Source: Flammula alnicola (Eukaryota > Basidiomycota > Agaricomycetes > Agaricales > Strophariaceae). From it: a stretch of 64,000 bases of DNA. Positions 19,767 through 39,300 of this stretch are shown one piece after another. The stretch is from assembly GCA_015499995.1 (NCBI GenBank), contig JADNRV010000097.1:144074-208073 (forward strand). The letters run 5' to 3'. Under the pieces are notes generated by a model. That model saw only the letters and a list, made by a program, of their open reading frames with translations. It was not told the origin of the DNA and did not search any database. Position numbers and translations under genes: made by a program. The number at the start of each line of letters is the position of its first letter. The first letter of the stretch is position 1.

Positions 19767-20655
19767 TCAGTCGTGATCACGGTCGTTGCCGTCATCTCCA
19801 CCATGGCGGCGCCTGTCGTGGTCACGGTCGTTACCGTCGTCTCCACCGTGGCGGCGCCTATCGTGGTCGCGGTCTGTGCCATCGTCGCCACCATGGCGGC
19901 GCCTGTCGTGGTCGCGGTCTGTGCCATCGTCACCACCATGGCGGCGTCTGTCGTGATCGCGGTCGGTGCCATCGTCTCCACCATGGCGGCGTCTATCGTG
20001 ATCACGGTCGGTGCCGTCATCACCACCATGACGGCGAGCCTCGAGCTGTCCGCGCCTGTCGTGGTCAGGGTCGGTGCCGTCGTCACCACCATGGCGGCGC
20101 CTGTCGTGGTCGCGGTCGGTGCCGTCATCTCCACCATGGCGGCGTCTGTCGTGATCGCGGTCGGTGCCATCGTCTCCACCGTGGCGGCGCCTATCATGGT
20201 CGCGGTCGGTGCCATCGTCTCCACCATGGCGGCGCCTATCGTGGTCGCGATCGGTGCCATCGTCTCCACCGTGGCGGCGAGCCTCAAGCTCTCCGCGCCT
20301 GTCGTGGTCACGGTCGTTGCCATCATCTCCACCATGGCGGCGCCTGTCGTGGTCGCGATCGTTGCCGTCATCTCCACCATGGCGGCGTCTGTCGTGGTCG
20401 CGGTCGGTGCCATCGTCTCCACCGTGGCGGCGTCTATCGTGGTCACGGTCGGTGCCGTCATCACCACCGTGACGGCGAGCCTCGAGCTGTCCGCGCCTGT
20501 CGTGGTCGGGGTCGGTGCCATCGTCTCCACCATGGCGGCGTCTGTCGTGGTCGGGGTCGGTGCCATCGTCTCCACCGTGGCGGCGCCTATCGTGGTCGCG
20601 GTCGGTCCCGTCATCGCCACCGTGGCGGCGTGCTTCGATTCCGAACGGTTGCCTT
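19767..20655. repeat. 45-bp coding minisatellite, 18 units
   Basis: Nearly perfect tandem 45-bp repeat inside the secreted protein gene, organised as four blocks separated by slightly longer spacer units. Block sizes read along the protein are 3, 4, 5 and 6. The strong homogeneity indicates recent expansion by slippage or unequal exchange. Confidence 0.9.
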
Positions 20656-26020: not shown

Positions 26021-29000
26021 ATGTCCAGTCGTCGGTTTACCGCGTCATCCAGCGAGTCTCGATCAAGTCTTTTGCTACCGTCGGAGCGAGGAGGGTCGGG
26101 TAGCGTCTCTGGCAGGTCTGGAGTGGGTTCATTGAACGGAAGCGTTCAGAGTGTTAGTAGATCAGCGAGCGGAAAGGTAAGTATCCTGATAATTACTGCT
26201 CTGCTCATTCTTATCGCATTACAGCACTCGATTGCAGAGAAGGTACTGTCTGAGCTTCCTCTTGAGACGCCCACAACCCCTCAACTTACCCATTACGGAT
26301 TGTAAAGTACTCCCTGGGACCAGAGCCTGCATTATGGGGAATGCCTCTGAATGTGAGAGAGGATGATGATGCGTTGCACGATCCCAGAGTGAACTCAGGG
26401 AACGGCCACTTGCTCACTGTGCGCGCTCTCACAAATCTCGGATGTCTCTTTCTTTTAGCTATCGGCTGCTTGATGTTATTGTGCGTATCTACTTTTTTTT
26501 CTCAGCCCTTGTCCCACTGACACGTATGTTCCATTTCCTTTCTAGTGCCGGTAAGCCTGGCTTCTTCTGTTGTTTGAGTTGATTAACCCGCTTATTAATA
26601 CCCTCCCAGGTTATCCAATTATTTCGCATTTTTTAGCAAAAAAACCATCAACTCAAGGAGGGTTCAATCTCGGCGGAATCAATGCCTCAGGTCAAATACC
26701 CGAATTTTCAAACTTTGGGCTTATCGACCCAGTTACACCCAAGGAAGCTTATACACGATCGGCTTTCCTGGATTCCACCCAGGACATGGTGTTGGTGTTT
26801 TCAGACGAATTTGAAACAGACGGGCGTACGTTTTATCCTGGTGATGATCCGTTCTGGGAAGCTGTTGATCTTCACTATTGGGGTACTGTGAGTGGTGCCT
26901 GGAAAGATTTGGAGGATTGTCTGGATTGAACCGAGGATTTTACAGGTCGATTTGGAGTGGTATGACCCCATGCAGGGTGAGTAGGGAATATCATGACCTT
27001 TTTTTTTTTTAGTTCTAATTCCTTGGTTCCGACTCTAGCCACGACGTCTAATGGTTCTTTGAAACTCAGGATAGACAAGGTCACCGACCCTGCAGACAAC
27101 CATAACTTGCAATATAGGTCGGGAATGGTAAGCAGGCTTGATCCTTTTTTATCCATACACTTATTCAAACCCTATGGATAGATCCAATCATGGTAGGGAA
27201 CGTTTTGCGACTTCCCTCATGCCCCCTTGAACTAATGGATAAAATAAGGAATAAATTCTGTTTCACGGGAGGCATACTGGAAGGTGCGTTAGATTCTGTT
27301 GCTCGAATAAATTCTTCTCTGACGTGGTTTGACGTTCTTAGCGAACGTTGTGCTGCCTGGTTCATCTACCATCAGGTGCGGCAAGTCGTAATTCTATAGA
27401 AGAGATTCATGTCTGACTGGATGCGCAACGATAAAGTGGCCTATGGCCTGCTGTGTGAGTGATTCGAACTTTCTCTGATAACTCTCTTATACTAAATTTA
27501 TTCCATAACTTAGATGGTCCATGGGAAATTTGGGTACTTAGCTGATAATCTATACGGTAATAAAGCCTCTACTAATTTGTCGACCGTGCAGGACGCGCTG
27601 GATACGGAGCAAGTCTTGACGGAATGGTGAGAACTTAATCTTTTGCACCAGACAGTAATGAATCTGACATCTACTCCTCTCCGTCAACCAGTGGCCTTTC
27701 TCGTATGACTCGTGCGATGTTGGCACGTTACCGAACCAAACATTCCCTGGAACTACTACTCCCCTGGCTGCTACTGAAAATGGCGATCCAACGTACGGCG
27801 GCGTCCTGGTGAGTAATTCCTCCTTTTCGTGGTCGACGCCGCTTCTTATGCCACTTTTCATGCAGTCATTCCTTCCCGGACAGAAGCTCTGTACGTTTTT
27901 TTTTCGTGCCGATTTTTCATATTGTATTCATGGGCACATTCTAAGCTGCGTGCACTTGCTCCGGAGAGTCCCACCCTGGTCCTCAGAGGAGCGATGGCAG
28001 CTACGTTGGACGCGCAGCGCCGGAGATCGATGTGTTCGAAGCCATTATAACCGCTGGTATCGGTCAGGTATGTGCTGGTTTTTCTTGTACGAAGTAAATA
28101 TCTCACCGATTTTATCAGGCATCATTGTCTGCGCAGTGGGCGCCATACAATGTGAGTAGCTTACAACGACTGCTTCACATGCGATCTAATTCCAAATTGT
28201 TCTCAAAGGCCGCCTACGAATTCAACAACGCCACCGGTAACGTTGTGTTTCAAGATAATGGAACTACCATACACAACCCATTTGTCGGAGGTGAATTGTC
28301 GTCAGGCTGACTAGGTGGGGCCGCTTTGCTAATTGATTTCAACAGGCGCATTCCAGCAGACGACCAGTGGCCTGGCAACGACGAACCAAAACTGTTACGA
28401 GCTCAATCAGGGCTGCTTCGCCGTATATGCGTTTGAATATCGGACTGGGTATGTTTCCCTTGATATCTTTGTTCTTGACTCAGCATGCTGACACTCTGTT
28501 GGTTCTTTTCATAGGTTCGATGATGGTTATATTTCGTGGATTCAAAATGGACAACTGTCTTGGACGCTCCGTGGTCCGGCTATGGGACCGGATAGTGCAA
28601 CTGAGATTTCAACTCGACCTATCCCACTCGAGCCGATGGTGCGTCTTTTCTCGATGCATGCAGCTATTATTCCTTGACTTGCTGACTGTCGTCCTGTCCC
28701 TTTCAATCCACAGTACATCATTGCCAACCTTGGGCTCTCGCTAGGATTTGGTGTTGTCGACTTCGAAAACTTGATATTCCCAGCAACGATGAGCATCGAT
28801 TACATACGTGTATACCAGCCTGCAAACGCTATCAACATCGGATGTGATCCAAAGGACTTCCCAACGGCCAACTACATCGACACGTGAGTCTTGCTCTTGC
28901 TCTTTCGTTCTTCGATCTCTCCGCCTCAAGTCAAAAATCATTCACTGACCTTCGTTTATCTTCTCTTCTTCTAGTTATCTCGCAGCATATACCAACCCTA

Positions 29001-29068
29001 ATCTGACGACCTGGACGGACGATTTCAAGCAGCCTTTCCCCAAGAATAGATTGAAAGACCAGTGCTGA
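26021..29068 (+). CDS. KRE6/SKN1-family beta-1,6-glucan synthesis protein
   Basis: Type II membrane glycoprotein of the secretory pathway required for cell-wall beta-1,6-glucan, with a GH16-like fold. The start at 26021 (MSSRRFTASSSESRSS) gives a Ser-rich cytosolic tail, followed by a proline-containing YSLGPEPALWGMPL block and a single membrane segment (LGCLFLLAIGCLMLFAGYP). Lumenal SKN1 domain motifs are all visible: VFSDEFETDGRTFYPGDDPF, DLHYWGT, DLEWYDP, FCFTGGILEANVVLPG, GLWPAVWSMGNLGRAGYGA, SYDSCDVGTLPNQT, APEIDVFEA, QNGQLSWTL and IDYIRVYQP. About sixteen exons join in frame, including an 11-nt micro-exon at 27182-27192 that restores the conserved I-Q-S-W before NKFCF. The end is QC-TGA at 29066-29068. 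Appears intact. Confidence 0.93.
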
Positions 29069-30404
29069 GTTCTTTATTCATTCATTTAGTGTATATACCC
29101 TTCGGTGCTTTTATCATGCGGTTTTTGATGTAACGACGGACGGATTTATTGGTTCTCGTCTTGTAGAGTACCAAATGTTAATGTAACTTGCGTGTTGTCT
29201 GTTGTGTAAACTTTGCTTTCTGGTTTACTGTTATTCCAATTTTTCGTTTCGTTTTTAATTTATGAGTGCTTTATTATCCTCTTGTGACTTCACAGCCCGT
29301 TGGAGGAGCAACGAGGAAATTACCGCGATCAATCACCGGGTTTTACAGTTGGCTCGAAGAAGTTCTGAGTTCGCGCACGTGACAGAACTTGATTTTTTCT
29401 CTTCAACTTCAAGTTCCTACGTAGTACTAGTACTTCCATCAGCTAGGAATCAAGAAATTTGTGAGTTCTCTTCAGCAACCTTTGTCGCGCTTCCATCACT
29501 TCCAAACACCGTCCTTTTCTCAGTATGACTGCACAAGGCGACTCCTGCAGGCCATCCAGCAGCATCAGGCAACCCTCTTCACCACCTATGATGGCATAGT
29601 CAACCCGATTCAGGACATTCTTCCCCGGGATATCAAGTGGATCTCGATTCAGTCGGACAGCGGCGTCGAGCTCCCTGTCACTCAGCCTTGACTCAACCTC
29701 CTGCCAGCGAGTCCGCCACATCCAACGTCGTTCAGACTCTGGATGTCGTCGAACCTCCTCCTCGCGGCTCGCCCTCGCCCTCGTCTGAGCCCTTGGATGA
29801 CACTTATAGTCAGGTTTCGGCAGATCAACAGCTCGGGTGGCGGCAGGCCATGGCCGCCAAGAAGAATGTGGCATTGATGGAAGTATCGCCCAAGGTCAAA
29901 GAAGCGCCCGTTCTAACCCCAGTGCTCTTCCGTCTTGCTAGACTCCATATAAAAGTGACCGATCATCACAGTAAGTAGTAATAGTACGTAAAGGATTTTG
30001 CTGGCGGACACTCATTTTCAAAGGCGTCCGACTTAAACGGGTAAACCCAACTTGTCAAGTCCGCCGCAATAGCTGTCGTTTGCGTAGGTGATCATGCACC
30101 AAATTCAAGAACTGAGGTCTGAAGAGGTACGCCTTTTCGCCTACGCAGATAAAGAAATAACTGATATCAGATTCACTTGCAACCTCCAGACGCATTCAGG
30201 TTGTTCCCAGTGTTATGCATTATGAGCACGTCTACTATAATGAATGAGATGCTGTCAAAATCTATTCCTGGTATGGCTCAACCCACATGTCAGACGTGTG
30301 GGTGAGTCGTGTGGCTCACATTTTTAAGTCGTGGCGAATGTATACCACATCCCGTCTACACTCTATTCCACCTCTCCTCAGTGCCAATAACACGCCCTCC
30401 TAGG
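29069..30404. other. Intergenic region with unassigned open frames
   Basis: Open frames 29461-29691 (76 residues) and 29637-29978 (113 residues) overlap and, taken with a frame change, would make one acidic Pro/Ser-rich polypeptide. Neither has a recognised domain. They could be a decayed gene fragment; support is weak. Confidence 0.3.
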
Positions 30405-33400
30405 ATGTATCGCTCGTGTTCTAGGGAAAATGGGAGAAACCGTCATCCCGCAACTCAAATATATCACCTGTCTGAAGGCTCTACGCCATCGTCGAATGGC
30501 GGCTTCTTTCGCGACGCCTCTGGGTTCAGTATCGACCGATCTATGCTTACTGAAGTTCGGGGAAATATGATCATCGTTCGTTCTCCCGAGCAGCAATCTC
30601 TCGTATGTAAGATCCAGTCAATCACATCACAAACGCTGACTGCAATTCAGTGGAATTCCTATCGATTGACCGACTTCGATCAGCGAACACTGCGATGTCT
30701 GCGTTCCATTGAGCCGGGCATTTACACCATGGAAATGGAGCCGATGACATCCACTTCACGCATTAAAATATATCGCATTCATGAGTACGGGGATAAAGAG
30801 GATATTTTCCATGATCATCTCGCAATCGTCAAATCATCGTGCGTTTTCTTGTCTTGTCTTAACATTTCCTGGATACTCACACATAGCGCAAAGACAAGCT
30901 CGTCGGCCAGATATATCACAGTTCTTTGGAACTTCTGTAGAGAACGCTGATGGTAGCCGATTCATTGTCCTTTCTGGAGGTACGATATTGAGCAGCGTGA
31001 ACATACTAAAATTTGACTTATAGCTGACATTAAATTCCTGCAGGTAATTCGCCCTTGATGGATGTTTTCACCGGAAGTTCCATAGACATAAGAATGATAA
31101 CAGCGCAGCATGTACGTTCTGATTAATCAAGCTCCTGTCGTTTTACGATGCTAACTGACCATTGCTTAGTACTTGCAGATAATCGTGAGTGCATATATCG
31201 ATATCAATATATATAAACGGAATAACTAAGAAATCGTAGGACATATTCAGCATAGGATCATTCAGTCCGTTGAACTGGAGCTGGGTGAAATTTTGGCACC
31301 TCCCCATATTTACTCCAGACTGTCGACTTCTTGTGGACTTGATTCTTCTTGAATCTAACGGCATGCTAGCAAGTTCAGAAAGGGTCAGAGAAATGGTAAA
31401 TGACATGCACATAAAACCATGAAATTTGCTAAATCTGTCATTATAGGCTTTCAAGCGACCCTGTATTGTACGTTATCGAGAGGCAATATACCGTCTGATA
31501 TGTGAGCTATGTGTCCTTGACAAAATGAGGGGAGAACTACTGACGACTTGGATGACATAGCTCCTGGTGATATGGAGTGTATCGTGCACCGCAATCAAGA
31601 TCCAGCCAAAGTTAAGGATGCCATTGTAAGGGCTGACAGGGCTTCGAGCGGATTGGTCAGTCACTAAAAATCAAGCTTGAAGCACACGATCTAATATTTC
31701 CCCAACAATCATGTTGCTGGAGTACAGGTGGTGAGTGCTCTATCTTCTTGTCATCATCTGTTGTTGACAGTGTTGATCTCTCTCTCCATTGCAGTTTGTG
31801 AGTGCTCTATCTTCTCGACATCATCCATTGCTGACAACATTGATCTTTCTCCATTGCAGTTTGTGAGTGCACTCTCCTTGCCATTGTCCATTGCTGAAAG
31901 TGTCAATCTCTCTCTCCATTGCAGCTTGTGAGTGCTACTATCATCTGTCACTGACAGTGTTGATCTCTCTCTGGATTGCAGGATGCAAGTGCTCTCTCTC
32001 CTCACTATTCTTCTTTGTTGATAGTAGTTATCTCTCTGCACTGCAGAATGTGGGTGCTCTCTCTCCTCACCATTGTCCATCACTGATATTGTTGATCTCT
32101 CTTTGCATTGCAGGATGTGAGTGCTCTATCTTCTTGCCATCATCCATCACTGACAATTTCAATCTCTCTCTTCATTGCAGTTTGTGAGTGCTCTCTCTTC
32201 TCACTATCCTCCATTTCTAACAGTGTCAACCTCTCTCTCCATTGCAGTGTGTGAGTGCTCTGTCTTACCACCATCATCTGTCATTGACAATGACAATCTC
32301 TCTCTGCATTGCAGCATGTAAGTGCTCTCCCATCTTCTTGCCACACTTTGTCACTGAGGGTGTCAATCTCTCTCTGCATTGCAGATTGTGAGTACTCTCT
32401 CTCCTCATCATCCTCTGTTGCTGATAGTGTTGATCTCTCTCTGCATTGCAGGATGTAAGTGTTCTCTCTCTCTCTCACCAATGTTCATTGTTGACAGTGT
32501 CAATCTCTCTCTGCATTGCAGGATGTGAGTGCTCTCTTGCTCCTTGCCATCCTCTGTCACTGACAGTGTCAATCTCTCTTTATTGCAGTTTGTGAATGTT
32601 TTCTCTCTCCTTGCCATCCTCTGTTGTTGACAATGTCAATCTCTTTCTCCATTGCAGCATGTGAGTGCTCTGTCTTACCACCATCACTTATCACTGACAG
32701 TGTCAATCTCTCTCTGCATTACAGAATGTGAGTGCTCTCTCTCCACCTCATCATCTGTCACTGACAGTGTTGATTTCTCTCTTTATTGCAGCTTGTAAGT
32801 ACTCTCTCTCCTCACTATCATCTGTTGCTGACAGTGTCAATCTCTCTTTCTATTGCAGCTTGTGAGTGCTACCACCATCTGTTGCTGACAGTGCTGATCT
32901 TTCTCTTCATTGCAGATTGTGAGTGCTTCTCTTCTTGCCATCTTCTGTCACTGGCAGTGTTGATCTCTTTCTGCATTACAGAATGTGAGTGCTCTTTCTT
33001 CTTGCCATCATTTGTTGCTAACAGTGACAATATCTCTCTCTATTGCAGATAGTGAGTGCTCTATCTTACCATCGCCTGTTGCTAACAGTGATGATCTCTC
33101 TCTGCATTGCAGTTTGTAAGTGCTTTCTCTTTTTTCCATCATCTGTTACTGACAGTGTCAATCTCTCTCTGCATTGCAGCATGTGAGTGCTTTCCCCTCT
33201 CACCCTGCCAGTGTGTTTTCTTGCTGAATGCTACTCTTAAGCCTCATAACAACTGTATGTCATGTAACACCATATATTATTTAACTTCATTTTCTTTCTG
33301 TCTGCAAAGCACCTGTTCATTCCACTCCTTCAACTTCTGGAATAGAGGAAATCAGTCAAGGTAAGTCTGTCCTCCATTCATTCTTTTTTTTAAAATGAAT

Positions 33401-33521
33401 GTGGTCTGGCTATCAAGACATAATGGATGTAGATTCTCCCTTTGATACTGGGATTACCGGTAATTCATTAGACATTGGTGGAGGCTTTTTGATAGAAGAT
33501 GTAATGGATGTGGGTCCATAG
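30405..33521 (+). CDS. Unrecognised protein; gene interrupted by a tandem array of intron-like units
   Basis: Proposed start is the ATG of MYRSCSRENG. Early residues contain NGGFFRDASGFSIDRSMLTE, a pattern like the N-terminal leader of many basidiomycete NACHT and kinase-like proteins. Exons appear to be 30405-30603, 30651-30838, 30894-30979, 31044-31111 and further short ones. One exon reads RRPDISQFFGTS followed by RFIVLSGG, resembling the kinase-like HPNI..FFG segment, but no full kinase domain is visible. After an exon ending ASSGL (31655) the gene runs into 22 tandem intron-like units (31731-33182). Beyond them, exons 33242-33254, 33310-33360 and 33418-33521 encode PHNNSPVHSTPSTSGIEE and a Gly/Asp-rich tail ending DVGP-TAG. 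Phase 0 is kept throughout if every 3-nt micro-exon is included. Function unknown; the exon model is tentative. Confidence 0.45.
31731..33182 (+). repeat. Tandem array of 22 intron-like units with 3-nt micro-exons
   Basis: Period mostly 67 bp (64-nt unit plus 3 nt). Units begin at 31731, 31798, 31863, 31928, 31985, 32050, 32117, 32184, 32251, 32318, 32388, 32455, 32525, 32592, 32661, 32728, 32795, 32862, 32919, 32985, 33052 and 33116. Each starts with a splice-donor sequence (GTGAGT in 15, GTAAGT in 4, and GCAAGT, GTGGGT and GTGAAT once each). Each ends with a pyrimidine tract and CAG, and 19 of 22 carry an NTRAY branch-site match (usually CTGAC) about 25 nt before the end. Between units lie exactly three bases (TTT five times, GAT four, CTT, AAT and CAT three each, ATT twice, TGT and ATA once). 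Unit length (54-67 nt) is that of ordinary introns in this genome. Alternative reading: a minisatellite inside one larger intron. Confidence 0.85.
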
Positions 33522-33693
33522 ATATAGAATTCTGCTACACCTGGTTCTGTTACAAATTGATATTAACTTTGATAGGGTCAACCAAGGGAGACTTAGGAAG
33601 CATGATACTGGTGTGAACTAAGGTTTTATTTGGGTTTTATTTCAGCAAATTTGTCTGGAAAATGCAACCTCCCGTCTGACTATGAATCCGAAG
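33522..33693. other. 3' flank of array gene
   Basis: Short spacer between the stop codon at 33519-33521 and the MITE. Nothing else seen. Confidence 0.4.
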
Positions 33694-33846
33694 TACTGTA
33701 CTATTTCGACCAAGTGTTCACGATTTTGGGAATTTTGCCTCCCCAAGGAGGCCGATAATTTTTCTTTTGATTTAAGGCGAATAAAAAAAGGTCTTTTTTC
33801 CCCAGTGTGATGCGTGATGTGAACACTTGGTCGAAATGGTACAGTA
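33694..33846. mobile_element. Short MITE with 26-28 bp terminal inverted repeats
   Basis: A 153-bp element. The left end TACTGTACTATTTCGACCAA (from 33694) is matched in inverse by the right end finishing at 33846, with one mismatch over about 28 bases. The outermost bases are TA on both sides, so the target duplication is probably TA, as in Tc1/mariner-derived MITEs. The interior is AT-rich and noncoding. Confidence 0.7.
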
Positions 33847-36372: not shown

Positions 36373-39300
36373 ATGCGTTCCAAAACTGTCGCATTTTGGC
36401 ACTGGGCTGCCCTTTTCCCCCTTGTCGTCGCTCTGAACAACATCGCGACCCCCTCTGCACCGCCGACCGTATCCATCCTCCCAGGTGCCTCGAGTGCCGC
36501 ATCTTCGTTGTCCAGCAAGCCTTCCGCCTCGCTGTCTTCTAAGTCGCCAATACCTTCAATATCGATACTCTCGTCTCAGTCCACCAATGCATCCTCTGTC
36601 ACCTCTGCTTCACCGAGCAGTGCACTGAGCTCTCAAGCTGTCCCCTCTGGCAATGCTAGCGTCTCCGTAACAGGCTCTAACACGTTCTCTCCATTCCCCG
36701 TTCCCTCGGATATCCCTGAGCCTCCTGTATACCCCGCTGTAGATCCCAGAAATCCACCCTCTGTAAGTCTTCTTGTCGCTGACGATTCGAGATTTTCGCT
36801 GACAGTTGACATCATCGTGGCTTTGTCTTTTCCCGATTCTTTTTTTGGACGGCTGCGTGTGCGTATTTAGGTTGGAGATGCTGTTATACCCGATTTTGGA
36901 CCTGCTTGGGCAGCGGCATATGAGAAGGCAAAGACGAAGGTGAGCTCCTTTTCGCTTTTGGGGTTGGACCTCGGGGCGGGCATCGTTCGCCGCTCGTGAA
37001 TGACTGGCTGCTTGGTTCTGCTTGGCGCCTCACCGTCGGGCCTCGGCCGCTAGTGCAATTCGGTGCGGCGGCGCGTCGGCTTAGATGGTTCTTTCTATTT
37101 TCTGCAGTCGCAACATCCGACGCGCTCTAGCGCTATGGAAGTCGTTGTGGACGTAATGCGTACATTAGGGCGTCACACTGGACCAAATCTGCACACAACG
37201 TGCTTGGGTTTTATGCTCTTTTCGCGCCGTGACACTTTTATGTCAATCTGGACCAGGGTCGAATATCAACCTAAATACTTGTCTCGCGTTTCGCTCCCGT
37301 CTTGACTACTTTTTACGGATTCTCATAAAACGTCGCGCATATACTCACCAAAACCTACAACTGCTCTAACACCTTAGGTCGCTGGATTCACATTAGAAGA
37401 AAAGGTTAGCGTTGCGACGGGAGTGGGATGGCAAGGCGGACGATGTGTGGTACGTACTATTAGCACTTTTGATGTAATATTCGATGTGACTTGAAAGATG
37501 TAACAGGGAAACATCGCTGCGATAGAGAATGGAACTAGCTGGCCTGGATTGTGTCTTGAGGTACGTTGGTTCTTCCTCCGTCCTTCAGTTCTTAAATTTA
37601 TTCCAGTGACTAACCTCGTCTTGTGATCTTTATGATTGGATGTAGGATTCTCCCCTCGGCGTGCGCCTCTCCGACTTTGTAACGGCCTTCCCAACAGGTA
37701 TCAACGCTGCAGCATCGTAAGTACCTCCCACACATCTTAGTGCAAACAAATACTCACCCGTCATCTACCTCTCCCAGCTTCAACCGTGGGCTGATGCGCC
37801 AACGCGGCCTATTCATGGGCGAAGAGCACAGAGGCAAAGGTGTCAACGTGCAGCTCGGGCCGATGATGAACATGGGGCGGATCGCGCAGGGAGGGCGGAA
37901 CTGGGAAGGCTTCGGCGCAGACCCGTTCCTGACGGGGGAGGCGGCGTTTGAAACGGTGCTGGGTATACAGCAGGCTGGGGTTATTGCGTGTGCGAAGCAT
38001 TTGATTGGCAAGTACGTGGTTTGTTTTATGACCTCTCTCTGTCTCCCTCTCTCTTTTGTGAGGATTGTTCGTGAGGAGATCGTTAACGCTGGTTGCCCAT
38101 ACCTTTTTTTATATTTTTACAGCGAGCAGGAGCATGATCGCACGACTTCGAGCTCGAATATTGATGATCGAACTATGCACGAGATATACGCGCATCCGTT
38201 CTTGAAGAGCGTGATGGCGGGTGTGGGGAGTCTGATGTGCAGTTACAGTGAGTATAGTCCGGTTTCTTTCTCCTTTAAAAGTGTATATACTGACTTCCGT
38301 GAACTAAAATGAATGCAGATTTGATCAACGATACGTATGCTTGCGAGAACAACAAAGTGATGAACGATATCGTGAAGCGCGAGTATGCGTTCCAGGGATG
38401 TAGGCATGCTTTTATTTTCGTCTGCTTTTTGTCTTTCCTGATGCATGCACCTTTGCAGTCATCATGTCGGATTGGTCTGCGTGAGTATTCATCGTTTTAG
38501 CATCATTTCTGTTCGGTCGATCGTCATGAAGAAAATTCGCCATGGCTAAGTCTTGCTTTTGATGTGTGTTAGTCAACATTCGACGATATCGGCCAACAGG
38601 GGATTGGATGTGCGTGAATCGAGCCATTTTTTTTAAAAAAAAAAAATAGCCATTGATGTCAATTTCGATTCATGATAGATGTCGATGCCTGGAGATATCA
38701 CTTTCAACTCTGGTACATCGTACTTCGGTGCGAACTTGACAGCGTTCGTAGAGAACGGGACGATTCCGGAAGGGCGTGTGGATGACATGGGTAAGCCTTC
38801 CGTACATTGACAGGCTGAGGAACTAACTCCCCTCCTCCTCCATATTATACCTATAGCAACCCGCGTCCTCGCCTCCTGGTACCTCATGCGACAAGACAGT
38901 CCTTCCTTCCCATCTGTTAACTTTGACGCCTTCAACCCCGACAGCGACCAAACGAACATGCACATCGACGTCCAGGACAACCATTACCAGCTTGTGCGCA
39001 CGCTCGGCGCGGCCAGTGCTGTTCTGCTGAAGAATGAGGGAGCGTTGCCTTTGGGCAAGAAAGATAGGAGTATTGTATTGATTGGGAGTGGGGCGGGACC
39101 TGGCAAGGCGGGTCCGAATGAGTTTGCGGATCAGGTGGGTGGTTTTTTTTGTTCGGTTTGGGGGGTTGTGTGGCGCACTGACCGTTCGGTGATGAATTTG
39201 TGTCTGGTATTTATTTAGGGTGGTACAGACGGTGTGCTTGCTATGGGATGGGGATCTGGAACGGCGAATTTCACATATCTCGTCACTGTGAGTCGTTTCT

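Follow-up and report, generated by a model that had tools for sequence, protein, structure and literature searches.

Introduction

In the truffle Tuber melanosporum, the NACHT-ankyrin (nank) genes carry tens of alternatively spliced 3-bp microexons, and this expanded family has been linked to nonself recognition (Iotti et al. 2012, as summarized in PMC4986451, PMC3689799 and PMC10197012). As far as these summaries describe it, the truffle system resembles the gene reported here, from the mushroom Flammula alnicola of the Strophariaceae (Agaricales), in placing many codon-sized microexons in one gene; the copies of the Flammula gene hold 21–24 of them. The two differ in that Tuber belongs to the Ascomycota and its hosts are NACHT-ANK genes, whereas Flammula belongs to the Basidiomycota and its arrays lie in an orphan family and in GTPase-like and ULD_2 hosts. 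Moreover, alternative splicing has been observed in Tuber, whereas the Flammula arrays are known from genomic sequence. The architecture is of a known kind, because the codon-sized microexons of Tuber precede it, and the Flammula arrays would work like the truffle case; the other phylum and the other gene families are what is new. In the openly licensed literature, we found no report of such an architecture in a basidiomycete or in a host that is not NACHT-ANK. A functional microexon is also described in a filamentous fungus, in Xlr2 of Trichoderma virens (PMC11121469); it is reported as a single regulated microexon with no array, unlike the arrays of Flammula.

The window, by which we mean the whole 64,000-nt stretch of DNA analysed, lies in contig C859 of the genome that was searched (74.4 Mb, 861 contigs).

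Other systems share parts of this design. Introners are near-identical introns that occur many times in one genome, scattered over unrelated genes. Many near-identical introns within one genome are likewise found in the Flammula arrays, but there each intron type is confined to its own arrays. In the hypervariable repeats of fungal NLRs, such as the WD40 repeats of Podospora, units stay alike and chosen codons diversify, as they do in the Flammula arrays; the Podospora repeat is coding, whereas the Flammula repeat is nearly all intron with one variable codon. The micro-exon genes of schistosomes, which are animal parasites, contain many small frame-keeping exons too; those exons are longer and of mixed lengths, in contrast to single codons.

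Structure of the window gene

A preliminary description of the window had reported 22 tandem intron-like units separated by 3-nt micro-exons at 31731–33182. Both TRF (31731–33191, period 67, 22.1 copies, 73% matches) and the splice boundaries bear out the 22 units. The exact 3-nt size of the micro-exons also stands, and their count had to be raised to 23 single-codon exons because an extra intron and a 3-nt GTG exon precede the array (Table 1). As the units were defined by AG, three nucleotides and a donor, the spacer length of 3 nt arises partly by construction; off-length spacers would show as fused, over-long units, and none were seen in the window array. Read in order, the array codons give the residue series FFLDNDFCHIDDFHNLLINIFH.

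Table 1 Features of the window gene (window coordinates) and the other single-codon exon arrays of the genome
Feature	Location	Strand	Details
Host gene, array inside	30405-33521	+	8 core exons, 23 single-codon exons, 3 tail exons; phase 0
Core exons 1-4	30405-30602, 30651-30838, 30894-30979, 31044-31111	+	Placed from copies, annotated protein and Phlegmacium relatives
Core exons 5-8	31170-31184, 31240-31395, 31447-31501, 31561-31655	+	Placed from copies, annotated protein and Phlegmacium relatives
Pre-array intron	31656-31727	+	GTCAGT...TACAG, 72 nt; annotated C21 model reads into it
Leading single-codon exon	31728-31730	+	GTG (TTG in C183, C21); sits before array
Array	31731-33182	+	22 units, intron plus one codon each; from splice boundaries
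Array codons 1-11	31731-33182	+	TTT TTT CTT GAT AAT GAT TTT TGT CAT ATT GAT
Array codons 12-22	31731-33182	+	GAT TTT CAT AAT CTT CTT ATT AAT ATA TTT CAT
Post-array intron	33183-33241	+	GTGAGT...CTCTTAAG, 59 nt; placed from tail frame in copies
Tail exons (13, 51, 104 nt)	33242-33254, 33310-33360, 33418-33521	+	55 residues plus stop
Array C490	L053		15 exons of 3 nt, 69-nt units
Array C93	L056		Single-codon exons: at least 35, encoding Y, D, R or H only; intron type as C490
Array C790	L052:4242-6005		26.9 copies by TRF; 13 clean units of about 27 analysed
Arrays C53, C157			18 units each in tested pair; matches at at least 4 places per contig
Further arrays	C479, C560, C643		From pattern search
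Array C568			11.6 copies

The unit introns are 54–67 nt long by their splice boundaries (n = 22), and they have the features of U2-type introns, namely GT(GC)–AG ends in 22/22 units, a branch motif near the acceptor in most of them, and normal length. With the other introns of the host gene measuring 48–64 nt, this agrees with the earlier statement that the units are built like normal introns. The donor is GTGAGT in 15 units, GTAAGT in four, and GTGGGT, GTGAAT and GCAAGT in one each, the last being the single GC–AG donor that had been pointed out; a CAG acceptor closes every unit (22/22), also as described. Branch sites, previously counted in 19 of the 22 units, are present in kind but in other numbers: a branch-like YTRAY occurs in 20/22, its A lying 17–28 nt ahead of the exon, and the strict CTRAC in 12/22. 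When the micro-exons are joined, two of the three reading phases are open and one contains stops, and coding exons flank the array in phase 0, the core ending in that phase at 31655 and the frame continuing open into the tail; both points had been made in the preliminary description, whose proposal that an intron was copied in tandem together with its boundary codon fits the array. It had not mentioned the diversified codons beside like introns, the placing of the array between the core and the conserved tail of one phase-0 gene, or the recurrence of this architecture.

When the first 201 bases of the array were searched against the genome, passing over very common words and scoring the best candidates only, there were 37 matches, all of them in four copies of the window gene, on contigs C859, C277, C183 and C21. 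C859 and C277, which are 98–100% identical across about 9.1 kb, are treated as two haplotypes of a single locus. C183 and C21 are probably haplotypes of a second locus: they are 98% identical over 939 bases upstream, and past a 6.8-kb insertion in C21 the alignment continues at 91%; on the other side they share 918 bases at 95%, after which the stretches compared no longer match. Window positions 29356–33658 are common to both loci. The copies contain 23 (C859), 23 (C277), 21 (C183) and 24 (C21) single-codon exons, and the last intron of C183, 103 nt long, contains a truncated unit.

Core, array and tail form an open frame to one common stop, giving 365, 364 and 367 residues in C859, C183 and C21, respectively; the core alignment spans 288 codons, with one fewer in C859 and C277 (287 aligned). 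In the tail of C277, a deletion has eliminated the donor that follows the 51-nt exon, with loss of the reading frame, which counts against the array being read as peptide. So does the existing annotation. The C21 copy is annotated as hypothetical protein BDZ97DRAFT_1847236, which equals our C21 core model over the first 288 of its 291 residues; its last three residues, VSH, are the start of the pre-array intron read through to a stop, and the annotated gene model ends before the array. We had earlier chosen a 6-nt exon at 31179–31184 and an exon 7 end at 31467, and dropped them because the annotated protein and the Phlegmacium relatives show a 15-nt exon and a later donor.

Constraint and diversification among the units

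We compared column changes on a tree of the units. In the array of C859, the oldest, donor positions G1, T2, G5 and T6 and the final A and G underwent 0, 1, 1, 0, 0 and 0 changes, as against an average of 2.63 for interior intron columns on the same tree. The single T2 change produced the GC donor. A GC donor is a tolerated variant. These counts bear on the possibility that the array is an intron-derived minisatellite, located within a single long intron or the 3′ untranslated region, whose units are never spliced individually. Such an element would suit the annotated C21 protein, which stops ahead of the array, and unit turnover in a tandem array is nothing unusual for a minisatellite. We nevertheless regard it as unlikely, given the conservation of the splice-site columns in C859, the fast codon positions 1 and 2 beside a slow position 3, a tail conserved as coding and in frame, spacers that are codon-sized only, and unrelated arrays of like design in the same genome. 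An ordinary minisatellite would be without constraint tied to splice or codon positions; in the arrays the splice columns are conserved and the codon positions stand out. The preliminary description had argued that splice signals need not persist in all units of a plain minisatellite, and this argument survived the column-constraint test.

Mean column diversity was 0.10 in C21 and 0.12 in C183, and codon positions 1 and 2 stood at 0.66–0.74. When trees were built with the tested columns left out, the codon triple ranked 1/65 for C21, for C183 and for the 65 units pooled; it ranked only 4/65 in C859 and 6/65 in C277, which counts against a peptide. With transversions alone counted, neither position 1 nor position 2 fell below second place among the 65 columns in any of the four arrays. 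In the pooled counts, which leave out C277 as a haplotype of C859, positions 1 and 2 took 18 and 22 transversion steps and position 3 took one, with an intron column mean of 1.08. Positions 1 and 2 changed at 12.6 (C21), 10.5 (C183), 3.4 (C859) and 6.6 (pooled) times the interior intron rate, a relative measure because units exchange sequence; Poisson values from the unit-tree and transversion tests are not exact. The fast change at positions 1 and 2 is most marked in the two younger arrays, and position 3 is not fast. CpG decay was rejected as the source of the codon variability, positions 1 and 2 remaining on top by transversions, although by our reading such decay would account for the fastest-changing columns of the introns.

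Across the 65 codons, position 2 is A in 29, T in 27, G in nine and never C, and position 3 is T in 54, C in ten and A in one. The residues in the window-gene arrays, not counting the GTG/TTG exon, are F, L, I, V, Y, C, H, N, D and R only. Between the haplotypes C859 and C277, 1/66 codon bases and 25/1384 intron bases differ; there is no codon excess, and the codon series is stable and the introns differ. The rate ratios given above could also be produced by a hypermutable site whose two variable bases need no translation. This explanation is highly improbable, since neither haplotype pair (the other, C53/C157, is described below) has a codon excess over the introns and the base that is spared is the very position whose T/C change is synonymous.

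The codon series of C183 and C21, of 21 and 24 codons, do not match. In a colinearity test with 1000 shuffles per pair, relied on only for the absence of codon colinearity, P for codon order was 0.428 (C859–C183), 0.998 (C859–C21), 0.791 (C183–C21), 0.217 (C277–C183) and 0.981 (C277–C21). For intron order the corresponding values were 0.399, 0.005, 0/1000, 0.417 and 0.012.

Similar arrays in other genes

The same architecture recurs elsewhere in the genome with unrelated introns, each intron type staying within its own arrays. The pattern GTGAGT-N38-68-CAG-N3-GTGAGT had 80 matches genome-wide, compared with six for the reversed pattern; by our own count, 73 of them fall in six arrays and seven are single. 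When the spacer was set to 4–12 nt, GTGAGT with CAG gave 74 matches and 39 reversed; the clustered ones were low-complexity GTGAGTGAGTG stretches, and no intron array with such spacers was found genome-wide by this pattern. Further arrays were located with patterns of two donors, an acceptor and a 3-nt spacer (Table 1). The C568 array and a second array on C53 were read and stand outside the rank tests.

The hosts of these arrays differ. That of C490 matches a P-loop GTPase (MMR_HSR1, 6e-6) and that of C53 matches ULD_2 at 1.9e-13, with a PigL_N match under its cut-off; NACHT was not among the Pfam matches of either. The C790 host has no Pfam match, although by eye it contains an HDSRGFE stretch as in C490. 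C93 and C490 are 89–91% identical in alignments that include the flanks, and their genes are similar. Read by eye, the exon ahead of the array closes in phase 0 in both C790 and C53.

Positions 1 and 2 ranked 1 and 1 of 67 columns in C490, 1 and 2 of 69 in C53, and 1 and 1 of 69 in C157. Their ranks of 7 and 1 of 66 in C790 and of 4 and 7 of 67 in C93 are counted against a peptide, as are the many C790 units that, as assembled, have spacers other than 3 nt. Some C790 units have shortened runs of one base, and we suspect that the off-length spacers stem from single-base runs collapsed in assembly. C occupies codon position 2 in 6/97 codons of the other families. In C53 and C157, 18/18 codons agree (0/54 bases differ), and the introns differ at 47/1166 bases and by seven indel events.

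An alternative view is that the codons are those of an ordinary exon into which intron copies were inserted at every codon boundary, in the manner of introner gain. The codons do differ where the introns are alike, and in both haplotype pairs, C859/C277 and C53/C157, the codon series is stable while the introns differ. We consider this very unlikely, however, as each array has its own intron type, the window intron was found only in copies of the window gene, third positions are almost fixed, unlike those of an ordinary exon, and the residues of the window-gene arrays form a narrow set. The introner-like origin raised in the preliminary description is likewise unsupported, because no spread of the intron over unrelated genes was found, all 37 matches of the best-candidate search being confined to the four gene copies, and the other arrays use unrelated introns.

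Some regularities of the other arrays were noted in passing. In C93, blocks of several units, DDYYRRR for instance, make up the codon series. The C53 and C157 contigs and L054, L055 and L058 carry arrays of one 71-nt intron type with donors GTACGT, GTATGT and GTAAGT, and their codons end in T or A.

Coding signals outside the array

The tail downstream of the array bears the mark of purifying selection. Between C859 and C183, it has eight synonymous changes over 37 sites and six nonsynonymous changes over 128 (dN/dS 0.19, Fisher P 0.0034), with 10 of the 14 changes at third positions; dN/dS was 0.36 for C859–C21 and 0.27, from 2 and 2 changes, for C183–C21. One tail segment, TSGIEEISQDIMDVDS, is closely matched in Phlegmacium P0005, where it likewise follows this kind of core (E 9e-07, a value that holds for a single comparison). 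For the core, comparisons between loci gave dN/dS of 0.85–1.00, and those between haplotypes 0.36 and 0.49; the values near 1 between loci could reflect relaxed constraint and count against the peptide.

Protein searches with the window gene, two of which scored the best 7998 candidates, matched only Flammula, six Phlegmacium glaucopus proteins and one ENA protein. None of the six Phlegmacium models contains a recognisable array peptide, which again counts against one. A Pfam search with the window protein gave no match at E 1, and with neither a NACHT nor an ankyrin domain found, the window gene stands outside the Tuber nank family. Rfam gave no match at gathering scores, nor did a search of plasmid DNA. 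The AlphaFold model of the C21 core has a mean pLDDT of 31.9.

Proposed mode of action

We think it likely that the array consists of real small introns that are spliced one by one, and that the codons between them encode a diversified peptide. The small introns would be removed separately, leaving one whole phase-0 codon between each two, and the 23 codons would join into a peptide, translated between the 287-residue core and the 55-residue tail. The codon-level pattern favours such splicing over recursive removal or removal as a block. Units would be gained and lost through unequal exchange and conversion, as the likeness of the introns within one array suggests. Over longer times, selection would favour different residues at single codons, which we infer because positions 1 and 2 outrun both position 3 and the introns. 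The frame is unaffected however many micro-exons are skipped or gained, as each amounts to a single codon in phase 0. The array peptide would most likely act as a variable recognition surface. A bolder suggestion, which we hold only tentatively and think rather doubtful, is that the arrays are combinatorial peptide generators, their exons kept or skipped in frame so that one gene yields a very large number of receptor tips somatically, in addition to the heritable turnover of units, and that several unrelated gene families reached this device independently.

If one-by-one splicing and translation of the array are correct, each exon contributes a single residue to a protein segment, and variable recognition peptides are built from splicing units rather than from coding repeats. 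A little-known truffle case would then be linked with mushrooms and with host genes outside the NACHT-ANK class, and tandem introns with a codon-sized spacer would be a signature searchable in any fungal genome. Splicing-based diversification of fungal recognition proteins would become directly testable by long reads, and the locus would serve as a warning that gene predictors end such genes too early.

Flanking sequence

Several features of the surrounding window were recorded. Downstream of the gene, about 150 bases at 33695–33843 with inverted ends (TACTATTTCGACCAAGTGTTCAC ... GTGAACACTTGGTCGAAATGGTA) are present in C859 and absent from C277; this difference between the haplotypes resembles the insertion of a small inverted-repeat transposon. 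Upstream, positions 29500–30300 have few substitutions across the four copies (91–92% identity with indels, compared with 89% over 29356–31730). Two open frames in this upstream stretch are without a Pfam match at E 1. The open frames at 26500–29070 presumably belong to a beta-glucan synthesis (SKN1/KRE6-like) gene, and those at 37680–38310 we take to be a family 3 glycoside hydrolase. Farther away, 45-bp repeats, their length divisible by three, form an array at positions 19770–20638; in one frame the unit reads as 15 residues, with R, G, H and C abundant.
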